DNA of 49,019 nucleotides from an uncultured Hyphomicrobiales bacterium (GTDB lineage Bacteria > Pseudomonadota > Alphaproteobacteria > Rhizobiales > Beijerinckiaceae). The first letter of the stretch is position 1. Every line of letters starts with the position of its first letter. Below are positions 7,489-48,854 of the stretch, in pieces. The position numbers and the translations under genes were made by a program. The stretch is taken from the NCBI GenBank assembly GCA_903897875.1, contig CAIUDK010000159.1, positions 1-49,019 on the forward strand, read 5' to 3'. The notes beneath the pieces are model-generated. The model made no database searches and was not told the DNA's origin. It saw nothing but the letters and a program-made list of their open reading frames with translations.

Positions 7489-9906
7489 ATGAAATTCACA
7501 CTCTCCTGGCTCAAAGATCATCTTGAGACCGATGCTTCACTCGAAACCATTGTCGAGACGCTGACGCGCATCGGATTGGAAGTTGAGCATGTGCACAATC
7601 CTGCCGATGCGCTGAAAGACTTCGTCATTGCGCATGTCATCTCAGCCACGCAGCATCCCAATGCAGATCGGCTGCGCGTCTGCATGGTGGACACAGGCGA
7701 TGGTGTGCCTTTGCAAGTTGTGTGCGGTGCGCCCAATGCGCGCAGTGGATTGAAGACCGTCTTCTCGCCACCGGGCACTTATATTCCGTCCAAAAATATC
7801 ACAATCGCCAAGGGCGTAATTCGTGGTGTCGAATCCAACGGCATGATGTGTTCTTTCGAAGAGCTCGGTCTGTCGGCGGAGTCTGAAGGCATTATCGAAG
7901 TGCCTGACGATGCGCCTGTTGGCACGCGCTATATTGATTTTGCTGGGCTCAATGAGCCCGTGATTGAAATCAATCTGACGCCCAATCGTGCAGATGCGAC
8001 AGGCGTGCATGGCATTGCGCGCGATTTGGCTGGCGCTGGTTTGGGACGTTTGAAAGATCGCCCGATCAAGCCTATCCCCGCAAGCTTTGCTTGTCCTGTT
8101 GGTGTGAAGATTGCGCCTGATGTCGCTGAGCTTGCACCCATGTTTGCCTTGCGTCTTGTGCGCGGCGTAAAAAATGGCCCCTCGCCTGACTGGATGCAAA
8201 AGCGTCTGACCGCCATTGGTCTGCGCCCGATCAATGCACTCGTCGACATCACCAATTATCTGACTTTCGATCGCGGGCGGCCTTTGCATGTGTTTGATGC
8301 TGCCAAAGTGAAAGGCGCGTTGACTGTGCGCCGCAGCCATGGCGAAGAGATCGTGGCGCTGGATGGCAAGACCTACAAGCTTGATGATCATACGCTTGTG
8401 ATTTGCGACGAGGCAGGTGTTGAATCTGTTGCTGGCATTATGGGTGGCCAGACAACTGGCTGCGATGAGTCGACAACAGATGTGTTGATTGAATCAGCGC
8501 TTTGGGACCCAATGACCATTGCGCGCTCTGGCCGCAATTTAGGCATCGTGTCTGATGCACGCTATCGCTTTGAGCGCGGCGTTGATCCAGCCTTCTGTGT
8601 GGCTGGTGCCGAATTGGCCACACATCTTGTGATGGATTTGTGCGGCGGCACGGCGTCTGAGCTTGTGATTGCTGGTGCTGAGCCTAAACGCGACGCCGTG
8701 ATTGATTTCCCATGGTCCGAGGTCAAGCGCCTCACAGGTCTTGTTGTCACCGTGGAAGAGATGACGCGCATTTTAGAAACGCTGGGCTTTGAGCTCAGCG
8801 CAAAGACGGCTGAGCGCGTAAACGTTCGCGCACCCTCATGGCGCAATGACGTTGAAGGCAAGGCTGATCTTGTTGAAGAGATCATGCGCATTGTGGGCGT
8901 GGATAATATTGTCTCGACACCTTTGGAGCGCGATGAGGCTGGCATTCCAAAACCCATTCTGACGCTCTTGCAAAAGCGCACGCGTTTGACACGTCGCGCT
9001 TTGGCGGCCCTTGGTTTGGTGGAGGCTGTGACGTGGTCGTTCATTTCCAAAGCACGCGCGGAAATGTTTGGTGGCGGCAAGCCTGAATTGGCGCTCGCCA
9101 ATCCAATTGCTGCAGAACTCTCCGACATGCGCCCGTCGCTTTTGCCGGGCCTAATGGCAGCGGCGCAACGCAATGCTGATCGCGGACTAGGCGATGTGGC
9201 TTTGTTTGAAGTGGGCCAAGTGTTTAAGGGTGCTGGTGAGTCTGACCAGCGCATGAGCGCAACCGCTATTCGTCGTGGCACCGCTGGCCCCTTGGGGCGT
9301 GGGCGTCATTGGTCGGGCAATGGATCTAAGGTGGATGTATTCCACGCCAAAGCCGATGTGCTGGCCTTGCTGGCGGCCCTTGGTGTGCCAGCTGCTGCCG
9401 TCCAATTGATTCCCGGTGCCCCTGATTATTTCCATCCCGGTCGTTCAGGCACTTTGCAATTTGGCCCTAAAAACATCATCGGCTATTTTGGTGAATTGCA
9501 TCCGCGTGCTTTGGAGGCGCTCGATGTGCAAGGCCCGATGGTTGGTTTTGAAATTCTGCTCGATGACATTCCAGCACCTAAGGCAAAGCCAACGCGCGCC
9601 AAGGGCAAATTGGAATTGGCCGAATTGATGCCGCTGGAGCGCGATTTTGCTTTCGTGGTGGATCGCACTGCAAAAGCCGCTGACATTGTGCGCGCAGCCC
9701 TTGGTGCTGATCGCGCTTTGATCACGGGCGCCAATGTGTTCGACGTCTATGAAGGTGCTGGCATTGCTGAGGGCAAAAAATCCGTTGGCATTGCGATCAC
9801 TTTGCAGCCACGCGACAAAACGCTGACCGATGTTGAGATTGAGGCCGTGGGCGCCAAGATCGTGGCTGAAGTGGGCAAGAAGACGGGCGGCGTGTTGCGC
9901 GGCTAA
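7489..9906 (+). CDS. pheT: Phenylalanine-tRNA ligase beta subunit
   Basis: The 805-residue beta chain partners PheS. From N to C it shows the EMAP-like tRNA-binding domain ([21 protein letters not shown] near residue 45), B3/B4 editing region segments ([20 protein letters not shown] near 250, [12 protein letters not shown] near 325), the B5 DNA-binding-like fold, a catalytically inactive class II-like core and the C-terminal ferredoxin-fold anticodon-binding domain ([13 protein letters not shown] near 710). The beta chain edits mischarged Tyr-tRNA-Phe. The gene starts ten bases after pheS. Its stop overlaps the converging dnaE2 stop by four bases, leaving no room for a terminator between them. 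Confidence 0.97.
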
Positions 9907-12900
9907 TGAAAATCCCGGCTCTTGGGCAAAACGCGCATATCGCGTGGGTGGCTTTTGGGGGCGGGAGACTCACCGCGATACACTGGCGTTTGAATTTCAT
10001 CTGCGCGCGACAAGCGCGCAGACAAATTCTCTTCTTGCGAGAGACGCGATAAATCACCAGAGCGGTCGGTGAGTTTTTGCGCAACAAAATGAACAATGCC
10101 TTCAGCACTTTTTTGCACACGGCCTTGAATTTCTAACAGGCGCGCGCCCATCACTTCGCGCCGATACTGCTCAACCAATTTTGGCCAGACGACCAGATTG
10201 GCAATGCCGGTCTCATCTTCAATGGTGATGAAGACAACACCCTTGGCACTACCGGGGCGCTGGCGCACCAACACAAGCCCCGCCGTCTTCAACCATTTGC
10301 CATCCGTGGCATTCATCACATCTTGGCATGTCACAAGACCTGCGCGCGCAAGACTGGCGCGCAGGAAGGACATGGGATGCGCTTTGAGTGACAAAAACGT
10401 TGTTTGATAATCAGCCACAACATGTTCGCTCAATTGCATATCGGGCAGACGCGCTGGCTCGCTCTCATGAGCGAGTTCAGCCGCATTGGCGGCGGCAAAC
10501 AAAGGCAAAGCATCATCATCAGGCAAACGCCGCACAGCCCATGCCGCCTCGCGCCGATCAAGCCCGATGGAGCGCATGGCATCCGCATCAGCGAGCTTCA
10601 CAAGGGCTGCTTTTGAAATCTGCGCTTGACGCATCAAATGTTCGGGGCTGCAATAACCTGCGCCACGTTTGGCAAAAAGAGCTTGCGCCCAATCATGACG
10701 AAAGCCTTCCAATTGGCGCAGCCCCAAACGCAGCGCCAAGGCACCATCCTCTGTGCGCTCAAGCGTGCAATCCCATGCGCTGTGATTGATATCAACGGCA
10801 CGCACGTCCACACCATGCTCGCGCGCATCGCGCACGATTTGGGCTGGCGCATAAAATCCCATCGGCTGCGAATTGAGCAAAGCGGCCGCAAAGACTGCTG
10901 GATGATGGCATTTGATCCAAGCCGACACATAGACAAGATGCGCGAAGGCTGCGGCATGGCTTTCTGGAAAACCATAAGTGCCAAAGCCTTCGATTTGGCG
11001 AAAACATCGCTCGGCAAAATCGCGCTCATAGCCACGCGTCACCATGCCTTCAATCATTTTGGTTTGAAACAAATGAATGAGACCCACTTTGCGGAACGTC
11101 GCCATAGCGCGGCGCAAACGATTGGCCTCTTCGGGTGAAAAACACGCCGCCACCATGGCGATGCGCATCGCTTGTTCTTGAAACAGCGGTACGCCCAATG
11201 TTTTGCCCAGCACATTTTGCAATTCGTCACGCGGGCCGTGCTGGGGCGCTGGACCCGGCAAGATAATCGGCTCAGCTGCTTGTCTGCGCCGCAGATAGGG
11301 ATGCACCATATCGCCTTGAATGGGACCGGGGCGCACGATAGCGACTTGGATCACCAGATCATAAAAACAAGCGGGCTTAAGACGCGGCAGCATATTCATC
11401 TGCGCGCGGCTTTCCACTTGAAACACGCCTAACGAATCGCCGCGCGAGAGCATTTGATAAACATTTTTATCTTCACGCGGAATCGTCGCATGGGTGAGAT
11501 GAATGTCATCATGCTGCGCCATGAGATCAAAGGCGCGTCGAATACAACTCAACATGCCAAGCGCCAGCACATCCACTTTCATAATGCCCAAAGTGTCGAT
11601 GTCGTCCTTATCCCATTCGATAAAGGTGCGCTCGGGCATAGCACCATTGCCTATGGGCACGATGGTGTTGAGCGGTCCGCGTGTCAGGACAAAGCCGCCC
11701 ACATGCTGCGACAAATGACGCGGAAAGCCGATCAATTGCGTGGACAGATCAATCGCACGTCGCAAATCTGGATTGGTCGGATCAAGCCCAATCTCAGCAA
11801 TTTGCGCATCCGCAATTGCACTGCCCCACGGCCCCCAGACAGTGCCAGCCAAGGCTGATGTTGTGTCTTCACTCAAGCCCAAAGCTTTGCCCACATCGCG
11901 AATAGCAGAGCGCGGACGATAGGTGATGACCGTGCCACACAGGGCTGCGCGATGACGCCCGTAACGCCGATAAATATATTGAATGACTTCTTCGCGCCGC
12001 TCATGCTCAAAATCGACATCAATATCGGGCGGCTCGCGGCGCTCGGCTGAAACGAAACGTTCAAACAACAAATCGATCTGTGTGGGATCAACGCCCGTAA
12101 TGCCCAGCACAAAACACACAGACGAATTGGCCGCCGACCCGCGCCCCTGACACAAAATGCCTTGCGAGCGCGCAAAGGCGACGATGTCATGAACGGTCAA
12201 AAAATAAGGCGCGTAATCGAGCTTTTCGATCAGAACCAATTCATGTTTGAGAATGGCTTCGATCTTGGGTGGGACACCATCGGGAAAACGCTCGGCTGCA
12301 CCCGCCCATGTCAGATCAATCAAATGCTGCTGAGGCGTCTTGCCTTTTGGGATCGGCTCATCAGGATATTCATAGGCAAGATCGCTGAGTGAAAATTGAA
12401 TCTGGCCCACCATACGCGCGCTTTCAGCCACAGCCTCAGGGCAATCGCGAAACAGATGCAGCATTTCATCTGCAGGTTTGAGATAGCGCTCGGCATTGCT
12501 CTCCAATCTCTGCCCGATGTCTTGCAGATTGGTTTTCTCACGAATACAGGTGAGCACATCTTGCAGAGCGCGCTGCTCAGGCTCGTGATAGAGCGCATCA
12601 TTGATAGCGAGTAATGGCACGCCAACAGAGCGCGCAAAATCCACATAGGCCAACAGGCGTCTGCGATCATCGCCGTGACGATTGAGACTCAAAGCCAAGC
12701 GCACACGCTGGGGTGCGATTTTTTTTAACCGCTCCAGACAGGCACGCAAGTCATCATCGGGACGTCGGCCTGCAATGGGGCACAGCAACAGACCATCGGA
12801 AAATTTTTCCAAATCTTCAAAGGTGAGATGGCAGTCGCCCTTCTTTTCATGAACGCGGCCCAGTGTGAGCAATTGACACAGATGCCCCCAAGCTGTGCGA

Positions 12901-13163
12901 TCTTTTGGATAGGCCAAAATATCTGGCGTACCATCGGCAAAGATCAAACGACTGCCCACCACCAAACGAAATTGATCTGATGAGATGCCTTGTTCTTTGA
13001 GTGCTGCATAGGCCCGCACCACACCAGCCACAGAATTGTGATCGGCAATACCAATGCCGATATGACCAAGCTCTAGCGCGCGCGCCACACAATCTTCAGG
13101 ATGCGAAGCACCATAAAGAAAAGAGAAGTTTGTGGTTGTCGCGAGTTCAGCAAAATCGGTCAT
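9903..13163 (-). CDS. dnaE2: Error-prone DNA polymerase DnaE2 (ImuC)
   Basis: The 1086-residue product is a C-family polymerase alpha subunit of the DnaE2/ImuC branch. It makes translesion, mutagenic synthesis with ImuA and ImuB in the SOS response. The PHP domain is N-terminal ([21 protein letters not shown], then IADHNSVAG). The polymerase core has the catalytic aspartate segment [13 protein letters not shown] near residue 380. A C-terminal OB-fold region includes [19 protein letters not shown]. It is shorter than replicative DnaE1, as expected. I chose ATG 13163 over the track's 13196, since [10 protein letters not shown] matches the family start and it lies five bases after the imuB stop. 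It is the last gene of imuA-imuB-dnaE2 and should be LexA-controlled. Confidence 0.95.
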
Positions 13164-13168
13164 CGGAT

Positions 13169-14728
13169 TTACGCAAACAAACCATGCATGAACCAAGACG
13201 GCGCGCGCGTTTCGCGCAATTGCACGCCATCACGAAACACCCAGAAGCGATGACCATCGCGATCTTCAATGCGGAAATAATCGCGCGTGAGACTTGCCGC
13301 CTCATGCTTCCACCATTCTGGCGCAATGCGTTCTGGCCCTTCGGCGCGTGTCACATCATGCAAAGCGCGTCGCCAACGAAAGCGCAACGGGTGACCATCG
13401 GGCACTTGCGCCATCACTTCAATGCGCTCAGGCCGTTCAAACAAACGCAAAGGTCGCGTCGGCGGCTCATAGGGCAATTTATTCGTGGTAAGAGGTGTCA
13501 GATCTTTGGCCTGTTGGGCTGGCATCAAATGCGATTGTGCTTCAGGCCAATGGGTTTGCGCACTCACAAAGGATTGCACAGCATGCGCGCCAAAACGCGC
13601 CGAGAGTTGATCAATCAATGCGCTGATGTCGGCTTGCGTTTGTTCATCGCCATCAAAGCTCACCAACACAGCCGTGACAGGCGTCCGGCCATAGGCTTCA
13701 AGACGAATGACATCAAAACCAAAACCGGGATCGAGCGGATCACTTAAGCGATCAAGCTTTTGCGACAAAAGACGCGTGACAAGTTTTGGATCGCGCACGG
13801 GGCGTGATGTGGTCACCGCAATGCGGCGCACTTGACCATCGGTGCGAAAGAAACTCGCCTCCCAGACGCGCGCGCCCTCGCCTGCCCGCTCCAACACGCT
13901 TTCAAGATCAGCAGCCAGACGCTGCAACATATCTGGCAAAGGAGCCGTGTGTGTGAGCGGCTCCATAAAGCGGCGCTCGGCCAAGCAATCTGGCACGGCA
14001 CGACGCGGCGCAATCGGTTTGGCGCGACGGCCCAACACATCATCTAACGCATCGGCAAATTGCGCACCAAAGCGCGCCACCAAAGCTTTGCGCGGCTGGG
14101 TGGCGAGCGCACCGATATGGGTGAGGCCCGCGCGCATGAGACCTGTGATGATTGATGCGTTTAATTTGAGTGCAGACACTGGCAACCGTGCCACGGCAGA
14201 TTCTTCTTCGCCTGCAGGCACAATGCGGCCAAGGCCCGCTTCACACAAAGCGCGCGCTGTGCCCGGCTTTGACGCAATGGTGGCGTGCACATCAAAGCCC
14301 CAGCGCGCCATCAAGCGCACCAGCGCATCGCGCAATGCGACCTCGCCACCAAACAAATGCGCGCAACCTGTGATGTCGAGAACGATTCCGTGCAAACCAT
14401 CGAGCGCAACAAAAGGTGTGAAGCGTTCGCAGCCATCGGCAAGACGATTGAGACAATCCGCATCGCCTTGCGCGTCATAATCGCCCACTGCAAGTTTGGG
14501 CACACGCGCCCGCGCCTCAGCCAAAGACAGGCCGGGCATCAATCCAAGTTTGAGCGCAGCAAGATTGGCAGCCGCGATCAAACGCATTTGCGAGCACACA
14601 TCGGTCAGCACAAAGGGCGTATCAGCCAACATGCCTGCGGGCAGCGCTGAGCCGCGCAGGCGCTGCGTCGACAGAAGCGGAAAGTGCAGACTGAGGTAGC
14701 GACGAGAGATGTCGAAAAACGCAACCAT
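13169..14728 (-). CDS. imuB: ImuB, Y-family polymerase-like mutasome protein
   Basis: The product (about 519 residues from ATG 14728) resembles Y-family polymerases but lacks clear catalytic acidic residues, as ImuB proteins do. In the known mutasome ImuB is the hub that binds ImuA, DnaE2 and the beta clamp. Diagnostic pieces are the N-terminal RRYLSLHFPLLSTQRLR, the palm-region IVLDITGCAHLFGGEVALRDAL near residue 125, and the C-terminal LRFRWRRALHDVTRAEGPERIAPEWW. Starts at GTG 14767 and ATG 14755 are also open, so the true overlap with imuA is 107-146 bases. Either way translation is probably coupled. It is the middle gene of the SOS operon. Confidence 0.93.
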   Translation of the reverse strand: MVAFFDISRRYLSLHFPLLSTQRLRGSALPAGMLADTPFVLTDVCSQMRLIAAANLAALKLGLMPGLSLAEARARVPKLAVGDYDAQGDADCLNRLADGCERFTPFVALDGLHGIVLDITGCAHLFGGEVALRDALVRLMARWGFDVHATIASKPGTARALCEAGLGRIVPAGEEESAVARLPVSALKLNASIITGLMRAGLTHIGALATQPRKALVARFGAQFADALDDVLGRRAKPIAPRRAVPDCLAERRFMEPLTHTAPLPDMLQRLAADLESVLERAGEGARVWEASFFRTDGQVRRIAVTTSRPVRDPKLVTRLLSQKLDRLSDPLDPGFGFDVIRLEAYGRTPVTAVLVSFDGDEQTQADISALIDQLSARFGAHAVQSFVSAQTHWPEAQSHLMPAQQAKDLTPLTTNKLPYEPPTRPLRLFERPERIEVMAQVPDGHPLRFRWRRALHDVTRAEGPERIAPEWWKHEAASLTRDYFRIEDRDGHRFWVFRDGVQLRETRAPSWFMHGLFA

Positions 14729-15398
14729 CGGACTCCCATTCCAATAACCAGACATCAGACTGACCACGGCGGTTCAACACCAACCGGGCCTCAAAACTCA
14801 TAGCGCCCGGCCCCAGACGCGAATCACCCTTTGAGGGCACCGCGCGCACCACCCAGCGCGTGAGCGCAGGACTGGGGGCTGGCTCTGCCGCTAAGCGCAA
14901 ACAAAAGGCCGGCACGCCAGAGCTGCGCGCGGTCAGTGCCAATTTGCGCAAAGCCGTCAGATCAAACACTTTCGCCTGCCCCCAAGGCTCGACCACCACG
15001 GCTGAAAGCACCGCGCAGGTCAGACCATCATGGGCGGCGCGCAGCAGATCGGCGGGGCGCGACAGATCGATACAGATGACGCGGGCGGGATCGAGGCCCA
15101 GATCGGCCAGACCCGGCCCATACAGGCCGCCGCCCTCTTGGGCCGAAAAGGACTGCCGCACCCAAAGAATGGGGCCGGGCCGACTGCGGACAGCCAAAGC
15201 CGCCACAAAGCCAGTGGCGGTGGCCACATCGCTGGGTTTGGCCGCATAAATCTCATGCAAAGCGCCAGACGCCAGCCCGCCACCCAGCCGCTCATCCAGC
15301 AAGGACAGGCCAAAGCTGAGCGGCTGAGGGCGACGCACGCCCTCTAATTCGATTGCGGCAATAGTCTGCCGCAAGGCGGCAAGCCGGCCTTCTGTCAC
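14622..15398 (-). CDS. imuA: ImuA, RecA-like mutasome protein
   Basis: The 258-residue product matches alphaproteobacterial ImuA, a shortened RecA-fold protein needed for ImuB/DnaE2-dependent mutagenesis. Typical segments are SFGLSLLDERLGGGLASGALHEIYA near the N-terminus, PILWVRQSFSAQEGGGLYGPGL, and a C-terminal SDVWLLEWESDGCVF. The start is GTG at 15398 with GGAGAG about seven bases upstream. It is first in the operon; its 3' end overlaps imuB by over 100 bases. A promoter with an embedded LexA box lies immediately upstream, so induction by DNA damage is strongly expected. Confidence 0.93.
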   Translation of the reverse strand: MTEGRLAALRQTIAAIELEGVRRPQPLSFGLSLLDERLGGGLASGALHEIYAAKPSDVATATGFVAALAVRSRPGPILWVRQSFSAQEGGGLYGPGLADLGLDPARVICIDLSRPADLLRAAHDGLTCAVLSAVVVEPWGQAKVFDLTALRKLALTARSSGVPAFCLRLAAEPAPSPALTRWVVRAVPSKGDSRLGPGAMSFEARLVLNRRGQSDVWLLEWESDGCVFRHLSSLPQSALSASVDAAPARLSAARRHVG

Positions 15399-15493: not shown

Positions 15494-16258
15494 TCAGGAT
15501 TTGACCGCAAACACGATCAGACTCAGCAAAAACAAACCGCCAAAAATCGCTAGCCGCCGCATGGGACGTGAAAAGGTCAAAGGCCGATCATTGCGCACCC
15601 GCGCATCAATCACCATTGGCAGACGTGGCGGAAACAAGCCGGAGGCCAAACCCGCGACGGGATCAATGCCAAAGGTTTCCACATGCAGCGGGCCATTGGC
15701 AAAAGGAAAGCTGCCAGTGGGGGCAGCATCTTGGCGCGCAAACACACTCACCTCAACGGCGTGCCGATTGGCCTTGGCCAAAAACACATCCAGCACCGCC
15801 TCGCGCTCCAAATGATCATAGGCGACGACTGTGGCATGCGCGATGGAATCAGCCAGCGGCGCATTGCCACTGGGGCGCGCCCATTCGGGCACATCGCGCG
15901 CATCCACCAAATATTGCACATCCCTGTCCCCTGCAAAGGCGCGCAAAGTTTCACGCCCCATCGCCGCGACATCTTCACGCGTGAGATTTTGAATGCGCCC
16001 TTGTGGAAACTCGTCTAACTGGCGCAAACCATGCGCGCCATAAATCACATCCGGCGGCAAAGGCTGCTCGGCTGCCGCACCACTTGCGCGCTCAAGACTC
16101 AACAAAAAAAATCCAGCCATCTCGCCATCGGAGGCGAGATCACCCAGACCTTCTGGCAAAGGCAAAACAGGCGACGAACGCACATCAACATTGGACACAT
16201 TGCGAACGCTTGTCCCCAGAGGCAAGCGCACAGGCGTCACCGCACGCACGTCGATCAT
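15494..16258 (-). CDS. Unknown protein with C-terminal membrane anchor
   Basis: I do not recognise this 254-residue product. The first roughly 230 residues look soluble, with no signal peptide, and include SPVLPLPEGLGDLASDGEMAG and LREQ-poor mixed alpha/beta sequence. The last 20 residues (RLAIFGGLFLLSLIVFAVKS) form a single hydrophobic helix with a basic flank (RPMRRL), implying a tail-anchored inner-membrane protein facing the cytoplasm. ATG 16258 is preferred over the track's TTG 16264. It is co-oriented with and upstream of the imu operon, but that operon's own promoter follows its stop, so cotranscription is not required. Codon use resembles the core genes rather than the AT-rich neighbour. 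Confidence 0.6.
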   Translation of the reverse strand: MIDVRAVTPVRLPLGTSVRNVSNVDVRSSPVLPLPEGLGDLASDGEMAGFFLLSLERASGAAAEQPLPPDVIYGAHGLRQLDEFPQGRIQNLTREDVAAMGRETLRAFAGDRDVQYLVDARDVPEWARPSGNAPLADSIAHATVVAYDHLEREAVLDVFLAKANRHAVEVSVFARQDAAPTGSFPFANGPLHVETFGIDPVAGLASGLFPPRLPMVIDARVRNDRPLTFSRPMRRLAIFGGLFLLSLIVFAVKS

Positions 16259-16312
16259 CAGCAATCCATTATGCGAAAAGATGTGACGATGAGTGAGGAG
16301 GCTTGTGTGAGG

Positions 16313-16516
16313 CTAGAGGTGGGAGCGGACGTAACGAAGAGCCTGCAAAATATCCTCACGCTGCAGATAGGGATAATCAGCAAGGATCTCGTCAAAGCTA
16401 TGTCCGGTACCGATCTGTTCGACGATCATACCGACGGTGACCCGCATGCCACGGACACACGCCTTGCCACCCATAATGCCAGGCTCTTGCGTGATGCGAT
16501 CTAATTTTTTAATCAC
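16313..16516 (-). CDS. DUF433 domain protein (antitoxin-like), without visible toxin partner
   Basis: The 67-residue product has the DUF433 pattern: LDRITQEPGIMGGKACVRGMRVTVGMIVEQIGTG, then FDEILADYPYLQREDILQALRY. This small winged-helix-like family (VapB-like) is often paired with a downstream DUF5615 PIN-like toxin gene. Here no such gene follows; the next gene downstream is the tail-anchored protein. The start is GTG at 16516. It sits at the edge of the AT-rich patch, so it may be the remnant of a mobile toxin-antitoxin pair. The family call is good; the antitoxin role is inference. Confidence 0.8.
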   Translation of the reverse strand: MIKKLDRITQEPGIMGGKACVRGMRVTVGMIVEQIGTGHSFDEILADYPYLQREDILQALRYVRSHL

Positions 16517-16684
16517 AGTATTTTCATCAGCTTAGATCATCTCATTTCTACTTTAATTTTTTGCATAACAGACAGATTCCATCAGCTTGACCAAAGAAAA
16601 TACATTAAACACTCTTGATTTTGAAAATATCATTTTAAAAATTTTAGATCAAATTTTCTATAAAAAATTATAAGGAGCGAAGCC

Positions 16685-17959
16685 GTGCACTCAGAATTAG
16701 AACAATTAGCTACGGTTCTTGAACTATTTTCTGTATCAATAATCAAAAATGGACATGCTGAAAATCAATTATCTCAATTTCCTAACACACTCCCAATTCA
16801 TGCATTAAAAATAAAAAAATTCTCTATCGTTCCAATGCGATTGGCAAATGCTATCCGTGCATCAAATGCGGAAAACTTACCCGAAGAATTATTATCTGAC
16901 ATTAAAGAGATGTCAGATTCAATTTCCAATTTTCAAGGTATTTTTATTCATCATATTACTACTGGTTCTGGCATATCCGCAATAATTGGATATCTATTAC
17001 TATTTGAAACTACCTCGGCTCTTATTTCACAGTTTACCACCTGGGTCAAAATCACTGATCGCAATTTATTGCCAACAGCACTATTAACCCGTGCTCAGCG
17101 CGAAGAAAAAGCACTTGATTTATTAATCGTAGATTTTGATAAGTTTGATATCAAAGTCCGTTCTATTAATGATGCATTTCAGACGGCCGAAGAGCTACCT
17201 GCAACTCTTCAAGATTTAAAATTAGCAAGAGAACAGATTGATGCGATTTTAAAGGGCGTTAGAGAATCCGATGTGCACGTCAAGGATGCAGATGCGGACT
17301 CAAAAGCTGTTCTAGCTCGAATATCGGAACTAGAGAAAGAAGCAGCTACGCTTGTCGAAAACTGCGGACAAGCCTATCGAGCGGCGACGTCTCACGGCCT
17401 TGCCGCTTCATTCGAAGAACAAGAAAAAAAATTAAATAATTCAATTCTTTGGTGGATATCGGCACTCATAGCTTCATTACTTGCAGCTATCGTTATCAGC
17501 TATCTTCGTTTTGAACTTATTTCTAGCGCACTGAACTCTTCAGACATTAAAGAACAAACGATATGGATTAAAGTAGCACTGTCTATCCTAAGCCTCGGGC
17601 CTCCAATTTGGTTTGCTTGGCTTGCTACAAAGCAAATTGGGCAACGCTTTCGAATGGCGTCAGATTACGCGTTTAAAGCGTCTGTTGCTAAAGCCTACGA
17701 AGGATATCGCCGTGAAGCAGCTCGAATTGATCCAGAATTTGAAGCTCGTCTATTTAGCTCTGCACTCTCACGGGTTGAGGAAGCGCCTCTCCGCCTCGTA
17801 GAGGTTCACTCGTATGGTAGCCCCTTGCATGAGTTTGCAACATCAGAAGCGTTTCAGAAATTTAAAACCGAATTTCCAGAGGCTACGGACAAACTGCTTT
17901 CCTATATACTTCCGAATAAAGACAAGAAAAGCTCGCTTAAAAAGCCCGAACCTGAATGA
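16685..17959 (+). CDS. Unknown AT-rich coiled-coil membrane protein
   Basis: This 424-residue product belongs to no family I can name. It opens with GTG and has AAGGAG eight bases upstream. Residues 1-95 are soluble-looking; 96-118 are moderately hydrophobic. Residues 135-250 are charged, helical and coiled-coil-like (LQDLKLAREQIDAILK, ARISELEKEAATLVEN). Two clear membrane helices follow at about 254-276 (ILWWISALIASLLAAIVISYL) and 293-316. The C-terminal cytoplasmic part contains ASDYAFKASVAKAYEGYRREA and ends in a basic, Pro-rich tail. Codon use is strongly AT-biased against all neighbours, and 16517-16684 upstream is AT-rich and non-coding, pointing to horizontal acquisition. The coiled-coil plus two-helix layout would suit a sensor or a defence-type membrane effector, but that is speculation. 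Confidence 0.7.
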   Translation: MHSELEQLATVLELFSVSIIKNGHAENQLSQFPNTLPIHALKIKKFSIVPMRLANAIRASNAENLPEELLSDIKEMSDSISNFQGIFIHHITTGSGISAIIGYLLLFETTSALISQFTTWVKITDRNLLPTALLTRAQREEKALDLLIVDFDKFDIKVRSINDAFQTAEELPATLQDLKLAREQIDAILKGVRESDVHVKDADADSKAVLARISELEKEAATLVENCGQAYRAATSHGLAASFEEQEKKLNNSILWWISALIASLLAAIVISYLRFELISSALNSSDIKEQTIWIKVALSILSLGPPIWFAWLATKQIGQRFRMASDYAFKASVAKAYEGYRREAARIDPEFEARLFSSALSRVEEAPLRLVEVHSYGSPLHEFATSEAFQKFKTEFPEATDKLLSYILPNKDKKSSLKKPEPE

Positions 17960-18042
17960 AGCGTTGCACTTGCTCAACACCAAGGGCGGAGACAGTTTTT
18001 CAGCGCGGCAAACAAAGGCGTTCTAACGCTCAGGCCCTGAAC

Positions 18043-18084
18043 TTCTGGATCCCGGATCTGCGCTGCGCTTCGTCCGGGATGACA
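18043..18084 (+). repeat. Dispersed palindromic repeat, copy 1
   Basis: TTCTGGATCCCGGATCTGCG...CGTCCGGGATGACA folds into a hairpin through GGATCCCGGA/TCCGGGAT. It matches the element at 28277-28317 on the opposite strand over about 41 bases with one base inserted. It lies between the AT-rich gene and the NDUFA9-like gene. Confidence 0.8.
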
Positions 18085-18103
18085 ATCGTGGTCTCAACAA
18101 AAC

Positions 18104-19111
18104 TCACGCCAAACGTTGGCGCTCGTACTGGCCCGTCTTGCGATAGCGAATGAGATAGGGTGGTACGATGGATTCAATGGCTTCTGGCTTGATGCCCAAA
18201 CCTTCCAGCGTAAAGCCCTGCGCGCGCGCTTCATCCGAGACGATATTGTCGCGGCCGAGCAATTTGATTTGATCGCGCGTTGTAATCAACATCTCTGGCA
18301 TCAGCCCCAAGCTCAACGTATCGGCGATTTCGGTGGCCAGAGCGACGTAATGACCAATGCTGAGCGGTACGGGAGCCAGAAAGCGTTTGCGACCTGTCTC
18401 GTCACACACAAATTGCATGATCTCGCGCAAAGTCTTGATGGCAGGGCCGCCCAATTCATAGGTGCCGCCAGCCTGCGCTTTGCCATCGAGGGCGAGCGCA
18501 ACGGCTTGCGCAACATCGCCAACAAAGACCGGATGGAATTTTGTATCGCCGCCACCAAACATTGGCAGCACAGGCAGAATACGCGCGAGCGCTGCAAAGC
18601 GATTGAAGAACTGATCTTCCGGCCCAAAAATCACGGATGGACGCAGGATGATTGCATTGGGATTGGCCTCACGCATCGCCTGCTCGCCTTCACCCTTGGT
18701 GCGCGAATAGACCGAGTCGGAGTTTGCATCAGCACCAATGGCCGAGACATGCACAATATTATCAACGCCAGCTTCGCGCGCCGCACGTGCCACAGCGCGC
18801 GCACCAAAAGCGTTGACGGCCTCAAATGTCTGGCGGCCCTTGGGGCGCAAAATGGCAACGAGATTGACCACGGCATCGGAGCCGCGAATGGCGGCTGCCA
18901 CTGAGGCTGGATAGCGCAAATTGGCCTGAACGGCGTGGATCTGACCGACGCGACCCAACGGCTGGAGATAATTGGCCAGATCTGGACGACGGCTCGCGAC
19001 ACGAATCCGCCAGCCTTGGCGGGCAAGGGCGCGCACCACATGGCGACCCACAAATCCAGAACCGCCGAAAACCGTGACGATACGGCCGCTTCTGATCAAT
19101 GTATCCGACAT
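18104..19111 (-). CDS. NDUFA9-like NAD(P)-binding SDR-family protein (complex I-associated type)
   Basis: The 335-residue product is an atypical short-chain dehydrogenase of the NmrA/NDUFA9 type. The N-terminal dinucleotide motif is VFGGSGFVGRHVVRALARQGW. VHVSAIGADANSDSVYSRTKGEGEQAM carries the YxxxK-like segment, and ILRPSVIFGPEDQFFNRFA is typical of the complex I NDUFA9 homologues found in alphaproteobacteria. In mitochondria the relative is an NADPH-binding accessory subunit of complex I; a respiratory or quinone-related role here is inferred from family, as no nuo genes are nearby. The start is ATG at 19111. It is transcribed alone, divergently from mntH. Confidence 0.87.
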   Translation of the reverse strand: MSDTLIRSGRIVTVFGGSGFVGRHVVRALARQGWRIRVASRRPDLANYLQPLGRVGQIHAVQANLRYPASVAAAIRGSDAVVNLVAILRPKGRQTFEAVNAFGARAVARAAREAGVDNIVHVSAIGADANSDSVYSRTKGEGEQAMREANPNAIILRPSVIFGPEDQFFNRFAALARILPVLPMFGGGDTKFHPVFVGDVAQAVALALDGKAQAGGTYELGGPAIKTLREIMQFVCDETGRKRFLAPVPLSIGHYVALATEIADTLSLGLMPEMLITTRDQIKLLGRDNIVSDEARAQGFTLEGLGIKPEAIESIVPPYLIRYRKTGQYERQRLA

Positions 19112-28276: not shown

Positions 28277-28317
28277 TGTCATCCCGGACAAGCGCAGCGC
28301 AGATCCGGGATCCAGAA
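28277..28317 (-). repeat. Dispersed palindromic repeat, copy 2
   Basis: TGTCATCCCGGACAAGCGCA...GGGATCCAGAA is the reverse complement of the copy at 18043-18084, with one base missing. It lies ten bases after the mmsA stop and could also act as a transcript-end hairpin. Confidence 0.8.
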
Positions 28318-38934: not shown

Positions 38935-40236
38935 TTAGCTTTTACCACCGCACTTGCCGGTCTTCACGTTGAAGTTGCCGCAGGCAAGTGGCTTGCGCCA
39001 ATCAGAGATCAGATCCTTAGATCCTTCCAGATATGGCGACCATTCTTGGGCAACCACAGTTCCAGATGTCTGCCAGACTGTGTTGAGCTGGCCGTCTGCC
39101 TGGATCTCACCAATCAAGACTGGCTTGGTGATGTGATGGTTTGGCATCATGGCTGAATAGCCACCAGTCAAGTTTGGAACCGAGATACCAACCATCGCGT
39201 CGATGACAGCATCGGTATCCGTGGTGCCAGCCTTTTCAACTGCCTTCACCCACATATTGAAACCAATCACATGGGCTTCCATAGGATCGTTGGTCACGCG
39301 CTTTGGATTCTTTGTGTAGGCTTTCCACTGCGCAATGAAGGCTTTGTTTTCTGGAGTATCGATCGACTGAAAGTAGTTCCAAGCGGCAAGATGACCAACG
39401 AGTGGCTTGGTATCAATGCCGGCTAGCTCTTCTTCACCCACCGAGAAAGCGACGACTGGAATGTCAGTTGCCTTGATGCCAGCGTTGCCGAGTTCCTTAT
39501 AGAAAGGCACATTGGCGTCGCCGTTGATGGTCGACACAACAGCAGTCTTCTTACCAGCTGAACCGAACTTCTTGATGTCAGCCACAATCGTCTGCCAATC
39601 GGAATGACCGAATGGTGTGTAGTTGATCATAATGTCTTCGGACTTAACGCCCTTTGACTTCAGATAGGCTTCAAGAATTTTGTTGGTTGTGCGTGGATAG
39701 ACGTAATCGGTACCAGCCAAAACCCAACGCTTCACTTCACCGCCGTCTTTCGACATCAGATAGTCGACAGAAGGAATGGCTTGCTGATTGGGAGCCGCAC
39801 CTGTGTAAAACACATTGCGCTGTGATTCTTCGCCCTCATATTGCACTGGGTAGAAGAGGATGGAATTCAGCTCTTCAAACACAGGCAAGACGGACTTGCG
39901 CGACACTGAAGTCCAGCAGCCAAATACGGCAGCGACTTTTTCCTTTGAAATCAGCTCGCGTGCTTTTTCTGCAAACAATGGCCAATTAGAAGCTGGATCT
40001 ACAACAACGGCTTCAAGCTTTTTGCCCAAAACGCCGCCCTTCTTGTTCTGCTCATCGATGAGCATCAACATGACATCCTTCAGCGTTGTTTCGCTGATGG
40101 CCATCGTGCCCGAGAGAGAATGGAGAACGCCAATTTTAATTGTGTCTGCTGCCTGAGCACCAAACGCTGAGAGCGCCATGGCGCCACCAACGGCTGCGCT
40201 GGTCGCGCGCAAAATGGACCGCCGAGAAAAAATCAT
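38935..40236 (-). CDS. urtA: Urea ABC transporter substrate-binding protein UrtA
   Basis: The 433-residue product is the periplasmic urea-binding protein. Its N-terminus has a Tat-like signal (SRRSILRATSAAVGGAMALS, cut near AQAA). The mature part begins DTIKIGVLHSLSGTMAISET, and VFGCWTSVSRKSVLPVFEELN with FYPVQYEGEESQRNVFYTGAAPNQQ are hallmarks of UrtA among Leu/Ile/Val-type binding proteins. ATG 40236 is preferred over the track's 40251 because AAGGGGA lies at proper spacing before it. It is first in the operon, behind a sigma-54-like promoter. Confidence 0.95.
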   Translation of the reverse strand: MIFSRRSILRATSAAVGGAMALSAFGAQAADTIKIGVLHSLSGTMAISETTLKDVMLMLIDEQNKKGGVLGKKLEAVVVDPASNWPLFAEKARELISKEKVAAVFGCWTSVSRKSVLPVFEELNSILFYPVQYEGEESQRNVFYTGAAPNQQAIPSVDYLMSKDGGEVKRWVLAGTDYVYPRTTNKILEAYLKSKGVKSEDIMINYTPFGHSDWQTIVADIKKFGSAGKKTAVVSTINGDANVPFYKELGNAGIKATDIPVVAFSVGEEELAGIDTKPLVGHLAAWNYFQSIDTPENKAFIAQWKAYTKNPKRVTNDPMEAHVIGFNMWVKAVEKAGTTDTDAVIDAMVGISVPNLTGGYSAMMPNHHITKPVLIGEIQADGQLNTVWQTSGTVVAQEWSPYLEGSKDLISDWRKPLACGNFNVKTGKCGGKS

Positions 40237-40308
40237 AAGCTTCCCCTTCATTAGAATTGCATTTCAAAGCAGCGCCCCAATTGGGCTGCTCGGAACTCAA
40301 AGGAGGAA

Positions 40309-41600: not shown

Positions 41601-41762
41601 GAAGCGCTCTCAAGATACAAAACTCAAAACACAAACTTGCAGGGTGCTAGGTGGGCGCTCATCATGTCGAAAGTGAGAATGCAAAGCTTGCGAGCGAGAC
41701 TTATATCGTTGCTCTGCGTTGAGGCTCTAACGATTGGAATGAAATAGCGGATGGAGTTTGTG

Positions 41763-42800
41763 ATGAAAACAGTTTCGCGCCGCCAAATACTAACCTATGC
41801 GGCGGGCTTAGCCGCACCATCTTTTGCAACATGTGCTCTGGCACAGCCGTCAAAGACTTTTCCCGCTCCTCTTTGGAGCGCGCGACAATTTCACAATCAA
41901 CCTGAGCAGAGCCCGCTGCATAGAGCATTGGTAAGACTCTGGGCCAATGTGAAGCGCGAAACAAAAGGGCGTTTGGATGTTACCGTCTATGCGCAAAATA
42001 ATCAGACACAGGGATCAGATCCCGAAGTTCTCAAAATGTTGGTCAATGGCGACCTGCAATTTTACACGCTCATGGGCGGCATTTTAGCTAATCTCGTTCC
42101 TGCCATGGATGTGCAGGGTCTGCCCTATGTTTTCAAATCATCAATGCAAGTCTATCGTGCGATGATTGGACCGCTTGGCGATTATCTTCGCATTGAATGC
42201 GCAAAAAAGGGGGTTTATTGTTTTCGACAAGGCACATTTGAAAATGGCTTTCGTGATCTTAATTTGATTGATCGACGTGTCTACAAAGTAGAGGATATGG
42301 CGGGATTAAAAATACGCGTTCCCAATGGTCAAATGTTTCGAGATTTTTTCACCACCATTGGCGCTGAACCTGTCACGCTTAATATCAATGAGCTTTATTC
42401 TGCGCTCAAAGACCATCGCGTCGATGGACAGGAAAATCCGCTTGTCGTCATCGACACCAATCGTCTTTACGAGGTGACAAAATATATTTCTGTCACACAT
42501 CACATGTGGTCGGGTTTTAATCTTCTGGCCAATGACGCGTTCTGGTCCAAGCTTCCCATAGATGTGCAGCGCATCGTCAACAGCAATATCTGGCTGTCTG
42601 TAACTCAACAAAGAGTTGAGACAATCACACTCAATCAGTCATTGGTAAAAACATTGGTGGCGCGCGGAATGGTACTCAACAAGGCCGATACGAAAAGCTT
42701 TCGCCAAACATTGAGCACAGGATTTTACCAACGTTGGAAAGATCAAATCGGGCAAGAGGCGTGGCGCTTGCTTGAGCAAAGCGTTGGTAAAATAACTTAG
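41763..42800 (+). CDS. DctP-family TRAP transporter solute-binding protein, orphan
   Basis: The 345-residue product starts MKTVSRRQILTYAAGLAAPSFA, a Tat-like twin-arginine signal, and then shows DctP features: TKGRLDVTVYAQNNQTQGSDPEVLKMLVNGDLQFYTLMGG, FRDLNLIDRRVYKVEDMAGLKIRVPNGQMFRDFFTTIGAEPVTLNINELYSALKDHRVDGQENPL. ATG 41763 is chosen over 41751 since GGAG lies six bases before it. Ligands of this family are usually organic acids. It lacks neighbouring dctQ/dctM genes. Its position divergent from the TAXI gene suggests a paired function, but that is inference. Confidence 0.88.
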   Translation: MKTVSRRQILTYAAGLAAPSFATCALAQPSKTFPAPLWSARQFHNQPEQSPLHRALVRLWANVKRETKGRLDVTVYAQNNQTQGSDPEVLKMLVNGDLQFYTLMGGILANLVPAMDVQGLPYVFKSSMQVYRAMIGPLGDYLRIECAKKGVYCFRQGTFENGFRDLNLIDRRVYKVEDMAGLKIRVPNGQMFRDFFTTIGAEPVTLNINELYSALKDHRVDGQENPLVVIDTNRLYEVTKYISVTHHMWSGFNLLANDAFWSKLPIDVQRIVNSNIWLSVTQQRVETITLNQSLVKTLVARGMVLNKADTKSFRQTLSTGFYQRWKDQIGQEAWRLLEQSVGKIT

Positions 42801-46733: not shown

Positions 46734-47927
46734 ATGACATTAACTGTTTCAATCAAGCCCTCAGTCTCAAACGCCATGGCTGATCTGCAAAAGCCGCAGC
46801 GTCACGTCATTATTTGGGCGGCCAGCTTTGGGCTTGGCCTCTTTGCGTTAGCGATTGCTTTTGGTGCCAATTGGCGCGCACCTGCACTCACTTTGGTGGG
46901 GCTAAGTTTAGGCTTTGTCTTGTTTCAATCGACGTTTGGCTTTGCTGGCAGCTTTCGCGCGGCCCTTGTGCAGGGGGATTTTTCGGGCTTTCGGGCGCAA
47001 GCTTTTGCTTTGGCCATATCAAGCCTCATCTTCTTTCCTCTTTTAAATTTGGGCTCCGTGTTTGGAATGCCATTGAATGGCTTTGTCACATCAATTGGCG
47101 TTTCATTTATTTTTGGTGCGATCTTGTTTGGGATCGGCATGCAGATTGGTGGCGGCTGTGCTTCGGGCACTTTGTTTTCCCTTGGGGGCGGCAATATGCG
47201 CCTGCTCGTCACATTGATGTTCTTTATTGTTGGCTCAGCCATTGGAGCTGCACATTTAGATTTTTGGCGCGAGCTTCCAGCCTTTCCTGCCACTACGACG
47301 CAGGACATTTTAGGCTGGCCCTTGGCGCTTGGCGTTCACCTGTGCCTCTTTGCTGCAGTTATAAAATTTGCGCCACGTAAATCCCAAGGTGAGCAAATTG
47401 CACCCAAAAAGACTGACACACCATTTGGACTCTTTGGCAGGCCGTGGTCGTTGCTGTGGGGCGCTGTTGCACTTGGTGTGTTGAACGGGCTGACAATGGT
47501 GTTGGCTGGCAGACCATGGGGCGAGACATCTGGCTTTACTCTATGGGGCTCAAAAATTGCTCTGCATCTTGGTTTTGACGCGGCTAGCTGGCCTTATTGG
47601 CGCGGCAATCCCGGACCGCTATTTGTGAATATTTTTTCTGACATCACCACGCTGATGGATTTTGGAATCATCATCGGAGCCACACTTGCTGCAGCGCTGA
47701 GCGGCCGGTTTGTCCTCCAGCTCGACTGGCGTGGACGCTCAAATCTAGCTGCATGTCTGGGTGGCTTATTGATGGGCTATGGCGCGCGCTTATCGGACGG
47801 CTGCAACATTGGCGCTTATTTTTCTGCGCTCGCTTCAGGCAGCCTATCAGCCTGGGTTTGGGTGGCAGCCGCCTTTATTGGTAGCGCCATTGGAATTCGG
47901 CTGCGCCCCATTTTAAATTTAGCGTGA
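46734..47927 (+). CDS. YeeE/YedE (TsuA-type) membrane transporter of sulfur compounds
   Basis: The 397-residue product has about ten membrane helices in two repeats. Each repeat ends in the family's conserved cysteine motif: GIGMQIGGGCASGTLFSLGGG near residue 140 and GYGARLSDGCNIGAYFSALASGS near residue 350. Characterised members (TsuA, YeeE) take up thiosulfate through such cysteines. By the same architecture this protein probably moves thiosulfate or a similar sulfur species. ATG 46734 is the track start; ATG 46776 is an alternative. It is divergent from a DUF302 gene, and no YeeD-like (TusA) partner is in the window. Confidence 0.9.
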   Translation: MTLTVSIKPSVSNAMADLQKPQRHVIIWAASFGLGLFALAIAFGANWRAPALTLVGLSLGFVLFQSTFGFAGSFRAALVQGDFSGFRAQAFALAISSLIFFPLLNLGSVFGMPLNGFVTSIGVSFIFGAILFGIGMQIGGGCASGTLFSLGGGNMRLLVTLMFFIVGSAIGAAHLDFWRELPAFPATTTQDILGWPLALGVHLCLFAAVIKFAPRKSQGEQIAPKKTDTPFGLFGRPWSLLWGAVALGVLNGLTMVLAGRPWGETSGFTLWGSKIALHLGFDAASWPYWRGNPGPLFVNIFSDITTLMDFGIIIGATLAAALSGRFVLQLDWRGRSNLAACLGGLLMGYGARLSDGCNIGAYFSALASGSLSAWVWVAAAFIGSAIGIRLRPILNLA

Positions 47928-48257: not shown

Positions 48258-48854
48258 TCAAACCCATCGTGACGCTTCCTGCTGCGTCGGCAACCGACCT
48301 TCAGGGGTCAGAGCGTTAACGGCCTCGGGCAAGTGTTGGCTAAGGCCCATGAGAAGCTCCTCACGCGATAGACCCGTCTGAGCCATGAGAGTCTCGATCT
48401 GATCGGGATGAAGAACGCGTGCGAGATCAATGGGAGAAATTTCCCGGTTAGGGCCTTGCGCAACCCAAGACTTCGCCGCTTCGGATTGTCCGCTTTTTTG
48501 AAACTGCTTGATAAGTTCTCCAAGCCCCTCGCTCAGGATGCTGCCCGTGGCACCACTTGCAAGCAAACCGCCCAAGCCACCCTTCAGGAGATCTCCAAAA
48601 GCACCAGAAGGCGTATCGCTGGACGTCACTGTCTGGGGCGAAGGCATTGGCCGCGATTGCGTGTCAGAGGTGGGGAGGTGGGGCTGAGCTGAGGTCAGCT
48701 GCTTGACCGCTTTATAGGCAAGCAAGCCAAACACGGCCATGGTCATAGGCGACATACTGCTTCCTGCGCCGCTTCCACTGGCCGCACTGGTGTTGGACGC
48801 AGGCTCCCCGCGCGGGCCATTTTGCATGCCATTAAGTACATCGAGCAAACCCAT
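48258..48854 (-). CDS. YidB-family (DUF937) protein
   Basis: The 198-residue product matches YidB/DUF937-type proteins: [16 protein letters not shown] at the N-terminus, a glycine- and serine-rich linker, [15 protein letters not shown], and the C-terminal [45 protein letters not shown]. Members have no assigned biochemical role. A strong AGGAGG precedes the ATG. It lies 34 bases upstream of the GlsB-type gene on the same strand, so the two are probably cotranscribed. Confidence 0.9.

Follow-up and report, generated by a model that had tools for sequence, protein, structure and literature searches.

An AT-rich segment of the window, which here denotes the whole analysed stretch of 49,019 nucleotides from an uncultured Hyphomicrobiales bacterium, carries a gene for a 424-residue protein and raises the question of where this gene came from and what its product could do. 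The ORF is intact, starting with GTG and ending with a stop codon at position 17959 (Table 1). Its GC content of 0.403 compares with 0.544±0.026 in the 36 further ORFs of the window with a length of 450 bp or more (z -5.4), and its GC3 of 0.300 with 0.578±0.048 in the same set (z -5.8). The codon-use correlation of this gene, 0.66, is the lowest in the window, with values of 0.69–0.95 for the other ORFs. The sharply deviating base composition and codon use described in the first-pass annotation, as well as the AT-rich non-coding 5' flank, were thus confirmed, and the normal codon adaptation that had been named there as an argument against recent transfer was not seen. The next most AT-rich ORF of the window is located at 41751–42800 (46% GC, GC3 0.46), and three others (38935–40251, 46734–47927 and 48258–48854) have low codon-use correlation (0.69–0.74) with a GC content of 0.50–0.58, in or near the window range.

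Table 1. Features of the AT-rich segment and regions of the 424-residue protein, given as positions in the window.
Feature	Position	Strand	Basis or remark
AT-rich non-coding 5' flank	16517–16684	+	26% GC
Weak sigma-70-like site in the 5' flank	16606–16633	+	consensus match alone
Shine-Dalgarno-like TAAGGAG	16671–16677	+	ahead of the GTG start
Gene for 424-aa coiled-coil membrane protein, phrog_34659 member	16685–17959	+	ORF call and profile match
N-terminal four-helix bundle, residues 1–120, variable in the family	16685–17044	+	model and alignment
Charged coiled coil, residues 131–253, single helix into TM1	17075–17443	+	model and alignment
TM1, residues 254–275	17444–17509	+	hydropathy and model
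TM2, residues 293–315, W309 and T315 invariant	17561–17629	+	model and alignment
Juxtamembrane helix, residues 316–346, highest conservation in the family (0.86), invariant Q317, D327, Y328, K331 and G340	17630–17722	+	alignment
C-terminal cytosolic segment, residues 347–392, invariant L356, P368, R370, P380 and E383	17723–17860	+	alignment
Dispersed palindromic repeat, genomic, outside the gene	18047–18084	.	bounds the AT-rich segment on the 3' side

A DUF433 antitoxin-like gene (16313–16516; PF04255, 1e-22) borders the AT-rich segment on its 5' side. A second full copy of the palindromic repeat is present at about 28277–28315, and exact matches to its 13-nt core, GTCCGGGATGACA, number 20 across the draft genome versus 0 for the reversed control. 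The repeat is therefore dispersed, as had been proposed, although it does not lie beside the antitoxin-like gene, the two being located at opposite ends of the island. Several copies of the GTCCGGGATGACA repeat form opposed pairs with a spacing of 75–120 bp (C4, C115, C170 and C283). The 424-residue protein, considered as an adjacent PIN-like toxin partner of DUF433, matched no PIN family. The ORF flanking the DUF433 gene (15494–16264; 256 aa) has no Pfam match, and only weak partial matches to its product (residues ~84–217) were found, in 14 of 40 congeners.

Further flanking genes include imuA/imuB/dnaE2-like genes and an NAD-epimerase gene. The dnaE2-imuB-imuA-like mutagenesis cassette, named by sequence and gene order, occupies positions 9903–15398 on the minus strand directly upstream of the island. 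The window copy is not inside a P2-like prophage and has no adjoining phage gene; no convincing flanking direct repeats or tRNA att site were found around it, and Rfam gave no match between positions 15 and 20 kb of the window. Gene order around the epimerase gene was lost in all nine congeners examined, making an empty-site test impossible.

The gene was absent from all 36 genomes of the same genus that were searched, in line with the presence/absence check proposed for sister genomes. At the level of the order, any match was found in 5 of 298 genomes, the window genome included, and a profile of the C-terminal module detected members in 10 of 385 genomes of the class. None of the matches in these ten genomes had the 2TM module fused to a known sensor. 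In total, 122 relatives were collected, mostly with about 30–40% identity, comprising 80 genome contigs and 42 IMG/VR viral contigs; the latter were matched by an alignment query, while a single-sequence query found none. The family is mobile, with members on plasmids of Xanthomonas, Klebsiella, Agrobacterium and Vibrio and in a Providencia temperate phage, and 12 of 5,426 Escherichia coli genomes carry it. Its tree mixes proteobacterial classes and Bacteroidota, with 19 class changes against a least possible number of 5. In this tree the window copy falls among rhizobial relatives and has a long end branch (1.62).

Low GC content is not peculiar to the window copy. At 70 genome loci the GC content of the family gene lies below that of its surroundings by 8.7 points on average, the difference being negative at 67 of them, and the 200 bases upstream are also poorer by 9 points. 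The control set of 458 other long ORFs averaged +1.9 points (Mann-Whitney p=5e-30); this control mean is approximate due to the crude ORF caller behind it, while the contrast is large. AT-richness is thus a family-wide trait observed nearly everywhere, and the AT-rich island of the window is the usual look of this gene anywhere, signalling foreign origin and not necessarily a recent arrival. Family-wide AT-richness would outlast an old transfer, so recency is not deducible from it. The horizontal gain claimed earlier is upheld by the outlying composition, the absence from 36 congeners and the relatives on prophages and plasmids across phyla; this support does not extend to a recent date. Overall, the assignment of the 424-residue protein gene to horizontally gained phage cargo is strongly supported.

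The protein matches the profile of phrog_34659 over residues 61–394 (E=6e-65), which makes it a member of this family, and that of the more distantly related phrog_30912 (2.5e-17). Both profiles were matched by all 105 aligned relatives, and both have no function assigned in PHROGs. Pfam and NCBIfam contained no match to the 424-residue protein beyond coiled-coil noise, and PADLOC gave weak coiled-coil-type matches instead of a specific defence family. Searching its structure model with Foldseek revealed nothing in the PDB at E <0.001, the best matches being generic long helices, and a single uninformative rank-1 match among viral models (9e-4, TM 0.29). A likeness of the N-terminal bundle to plant Rx-CC domains reached E values of about 0.5–0.8 alone and was set aside. 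A housekeeping family was rejected for lack of Pfam, NCBIfam, PADLOC and PDB matches beyond coiled-coil noise. Open-access literature, searched by accessions and by architecture, contained nothing on the family, nor any report of it having been tested. The conclusion that it is undescribed in the libraries and open-access literature searched is therefore supported.

The most serious known candidate was the group of SLATT 2TM effectors (PF18181, PF18160). As in the window protein, their two transmembrane helices are followed by a helix, and they are thought to act on membranes; unlike them, the window protein has no nucleotide-messenger partner and carries a long N-terminal coil. Profile-profile comparison of the family with retrieved SLATT_1 and SLATT_5 proteins gave hhalign probabilities of 2.1, 1.3 and 0.5%, and no SLATT was among the families listed for a Pfam scan of the 105 members. 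This candidate was rejected.

For the genomic location of the relatives, the type of phage was not preset: neighbouring ORFs were clustered, cluster HMMs were made, and the clusters were assigned to integrase, terminase, portal, capsid and replication endonuclease by size, order and annotated records. At all 15 loci with a P2-type portal the family gene is located directly upstream of the antisense portal gene, at a distance of up to 370 bp in 14 of them, and in 12 of the 15 a gpA-type replication gene is found 0.2–2.3 kb upstream of the family gene. The annotated prophages of E. coli HS and a Klebsiella plasmid have the same arrangement. The relative in E. coli HS is ECHS_RS04510 (WP_001003256). 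Apart from the family gene, most P2-type loci contain only short ORFs in this slot, so that the family gene is the main cargo. The slot is the gpA-gpQ tin/old hotspot, the source of several validated anti-phage systems (PMC9122126; PMC9519451), although part of its cargo is non-defensive, including partition genes and a toxin (PMC9122126). The family thus shares with P2 tin/old and other gpA-gpQ hotspot genes (Rousset 2022; Vassallo 2022) the slot, the antisense portal neighbour and the short one-gene cargo, while the window copy differs from them in lying outside any prophage.

At 31 further loci, outside P2 prophages, the family gene is near tyrosine integrases or resolvases; an integrase gene adjoins the Mesorhizobium relative. 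At a few loci it lies beside genes for an OLD/Gabija-like ATPase, an NERD-UvrD helicase or a type IIG restriction (RM) enzyme. Matches to 323 PADLOC models occurred among adjacent genes versus 82 among distant ones, a count inflated by redundant GajA models, and the control genes, located more than 6.5 kb from the relatives, also include some defence genes. The enrichment of defence genes beside the relatives is therefore at most suggestive. Outside the P2 slot no constant neighbour was found, and a two-gene system was rejected for want of a constant partner gene near the relatives; the family is a single-gene one. An ORF of 779 aa at locus L064, considered as a fusion, proved to be an overlong upstream frame.

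An AlphaFold model of the protein, built from 105 aligned sequences, has a mean pLDDT of 86 and a pTM of 0.50, the latter being expected for a protein modelled as a long rod. Helices 3–21, 43–60, 67–93 and 96–118 form the bundle, helix 131–283 is the coil continuing into TM1, helix 290–345 is TM2 with the juxtamembrane helix as its continuation, and the chain closes with a small helical part. The previously described layout of a long charged coil, two transmembrane helices and the KASVAKAYEGYRREA helix is retained, except that the coil is preceded by the four-helix bundle and is not N-terminal. The KASVAK segment assigned earlier to a soluble C-terminal part is present, and belongs to the juxtamembrane helix, the most conserved part of the family. 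The mean frequency of the majority residue rises from 0.37 (bundle) through 0.44 (coil), 0.54 (TM1) and 0.67 (TM2) to 0.86 (juxtamembrane helix) and then falls to 0.65 (CTD) and 0.30 (tail); the protein is thus most conserved from TM2 to the CTD, and the N-terminus is variable. In the distant relatives L002, L009, L012 and L013 the TM hairpin and the W...Y..K...G pattern are kept and the N-terminal coils differ. The loop between the TM helices, 17 residues long and variable, has a net charge of -0.7, against +0.8 before TM1 and +2.6 past TM2, and both ends of the protein are therefore probably cytosolic (N-in/C-in). A membrane core that is conserved, joined to a cytosolic head that varies, would fit a constant effector combined with a changing sensor, where both terms are applied on the basis of conservation.

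The location in the P2 tin/old hotspot and the anatomy of the protein suggest a role of the family in defence. The earlier proposal of an undescribed system acting as a sensor or effector is accordingly a reasonable lead. The gene could be a horizontally acquired single-gene accessory element (phage moron) coding for an inner-membrane protein whose two ends are cytoplasmic. Its variable N-terminal bundle and coiled coil would probably detect something in phage infection, most likely an incoming phage component, and the conserved TM hairpin and juxtamembrane helix would act on the membrane. Once triggered, the protein may change the state of the membrane, by depolarisation or leak or by blocking a later step of infection, and infection would be excluded or aborted. 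Such a mobile, membrane-anchored, single-gene phage-exclusion or abortive-infection protein acting via the membrane is the most likely reading of the family, with about even chances.

RexAB is a prophage-encoded exclusion system with a membrane component, and is comparable in mode of action only: RexB has more TM helices than the window protein and needs RexA, whereas here one gene provides its own cytosolic coil. No sequence relation of the family to validated PADLOC systems was found. If the family does defend, it is a one-gene membrane system missed by the annotation libraries searched, and phage cargo can then take the form of an orphan AT-rich gene of an alphaproteobacterial chromosome. 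The cargo of P2-type hotspots is mostly unannotated, and one such gene is now placed in a family that has a conserved core and numbers at least 120 loci. A broader proposal, more tentative than the defence role itself, is that these proteins represent a widespread unrecognised class of one-protein anti-phage systems, with a cytosolic bundle/coil sensor and a 2TM/juxtamembrane effector, spread by P2-type and other prophages and by plasmids from Pseudomonadota to Bacteroidota.

Other roles are conceivable. As a single membrane-protein gene carried as a moron by temperate phages, it could act in superinfection exclusion in the narrow sense, blocking DNA entry or replication of related phages with neither cell death nor a pore. 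Cytosolic coils of this length are usually absent from small exclusion proteins, and the window protein is mostly cytosolic or membrane-embedded with a short and variable external loop, which makes this role unlikely. The presence of the family on plasmids and plasmid-like prophages, a ParB-like neighbour near some relatives and the partition genes of P2 hotspots would agree with element maintenance, the coil anchoring DNA or proteins of a prophage or plasmid at the membrane and helping replication or segregation. ParB-like genes, however, occur at 4 loci only, and in many genomes, that of the window included, the gene is an isolated chromosomal one with no replicon to maintain; this explanation is quite improbable.

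The umuC genes adjoining four relatives (L018, L050, L075 and L120), together with the imuA-imuB-dnaE2-like cassette near the window copy, could instead point to a lysogenic conversion factor unrelated to defence, for example a stress or envelope sensor benefiting the host. Such a role is improbable in view of the inconstant neighbours, the absence of a LexA-like box within 16001–18200 and the hotspot location, which favours defence. Whatever the function of the family elsewhere, the window copy itself could be a decaying passenger without function, as its long end branch, its absence in relatives and the lack of any remaining mobile element nearby would allow. Decay seems rather unlikely for an intact ORF that is preceded by a Shine-Dalgarno-like site and deviates from the family consensus in only 3 of 51 conserved columns (family median 1, maximum 7). 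The window copy, intact as it is, could be either active or inactive today.

Besides the family gene, some P2-type hotspots contain other recurring genes. Four of them carry, immediately ahead of the family gene, a second unannotated gene encoding 264–280 aa (L104:1591–2388, L113:8629–9471, L114:8715–9509 and L117:8717–9514); the two of these tested had no Pfam match. In the P2-like prophages of E. coli HS and Klebsiella, a gene for a 225-aa lipoprotein-like protein (WP_000700647) is found upstream of the family gene (L015:7038–7715 and L006:6730–7407).
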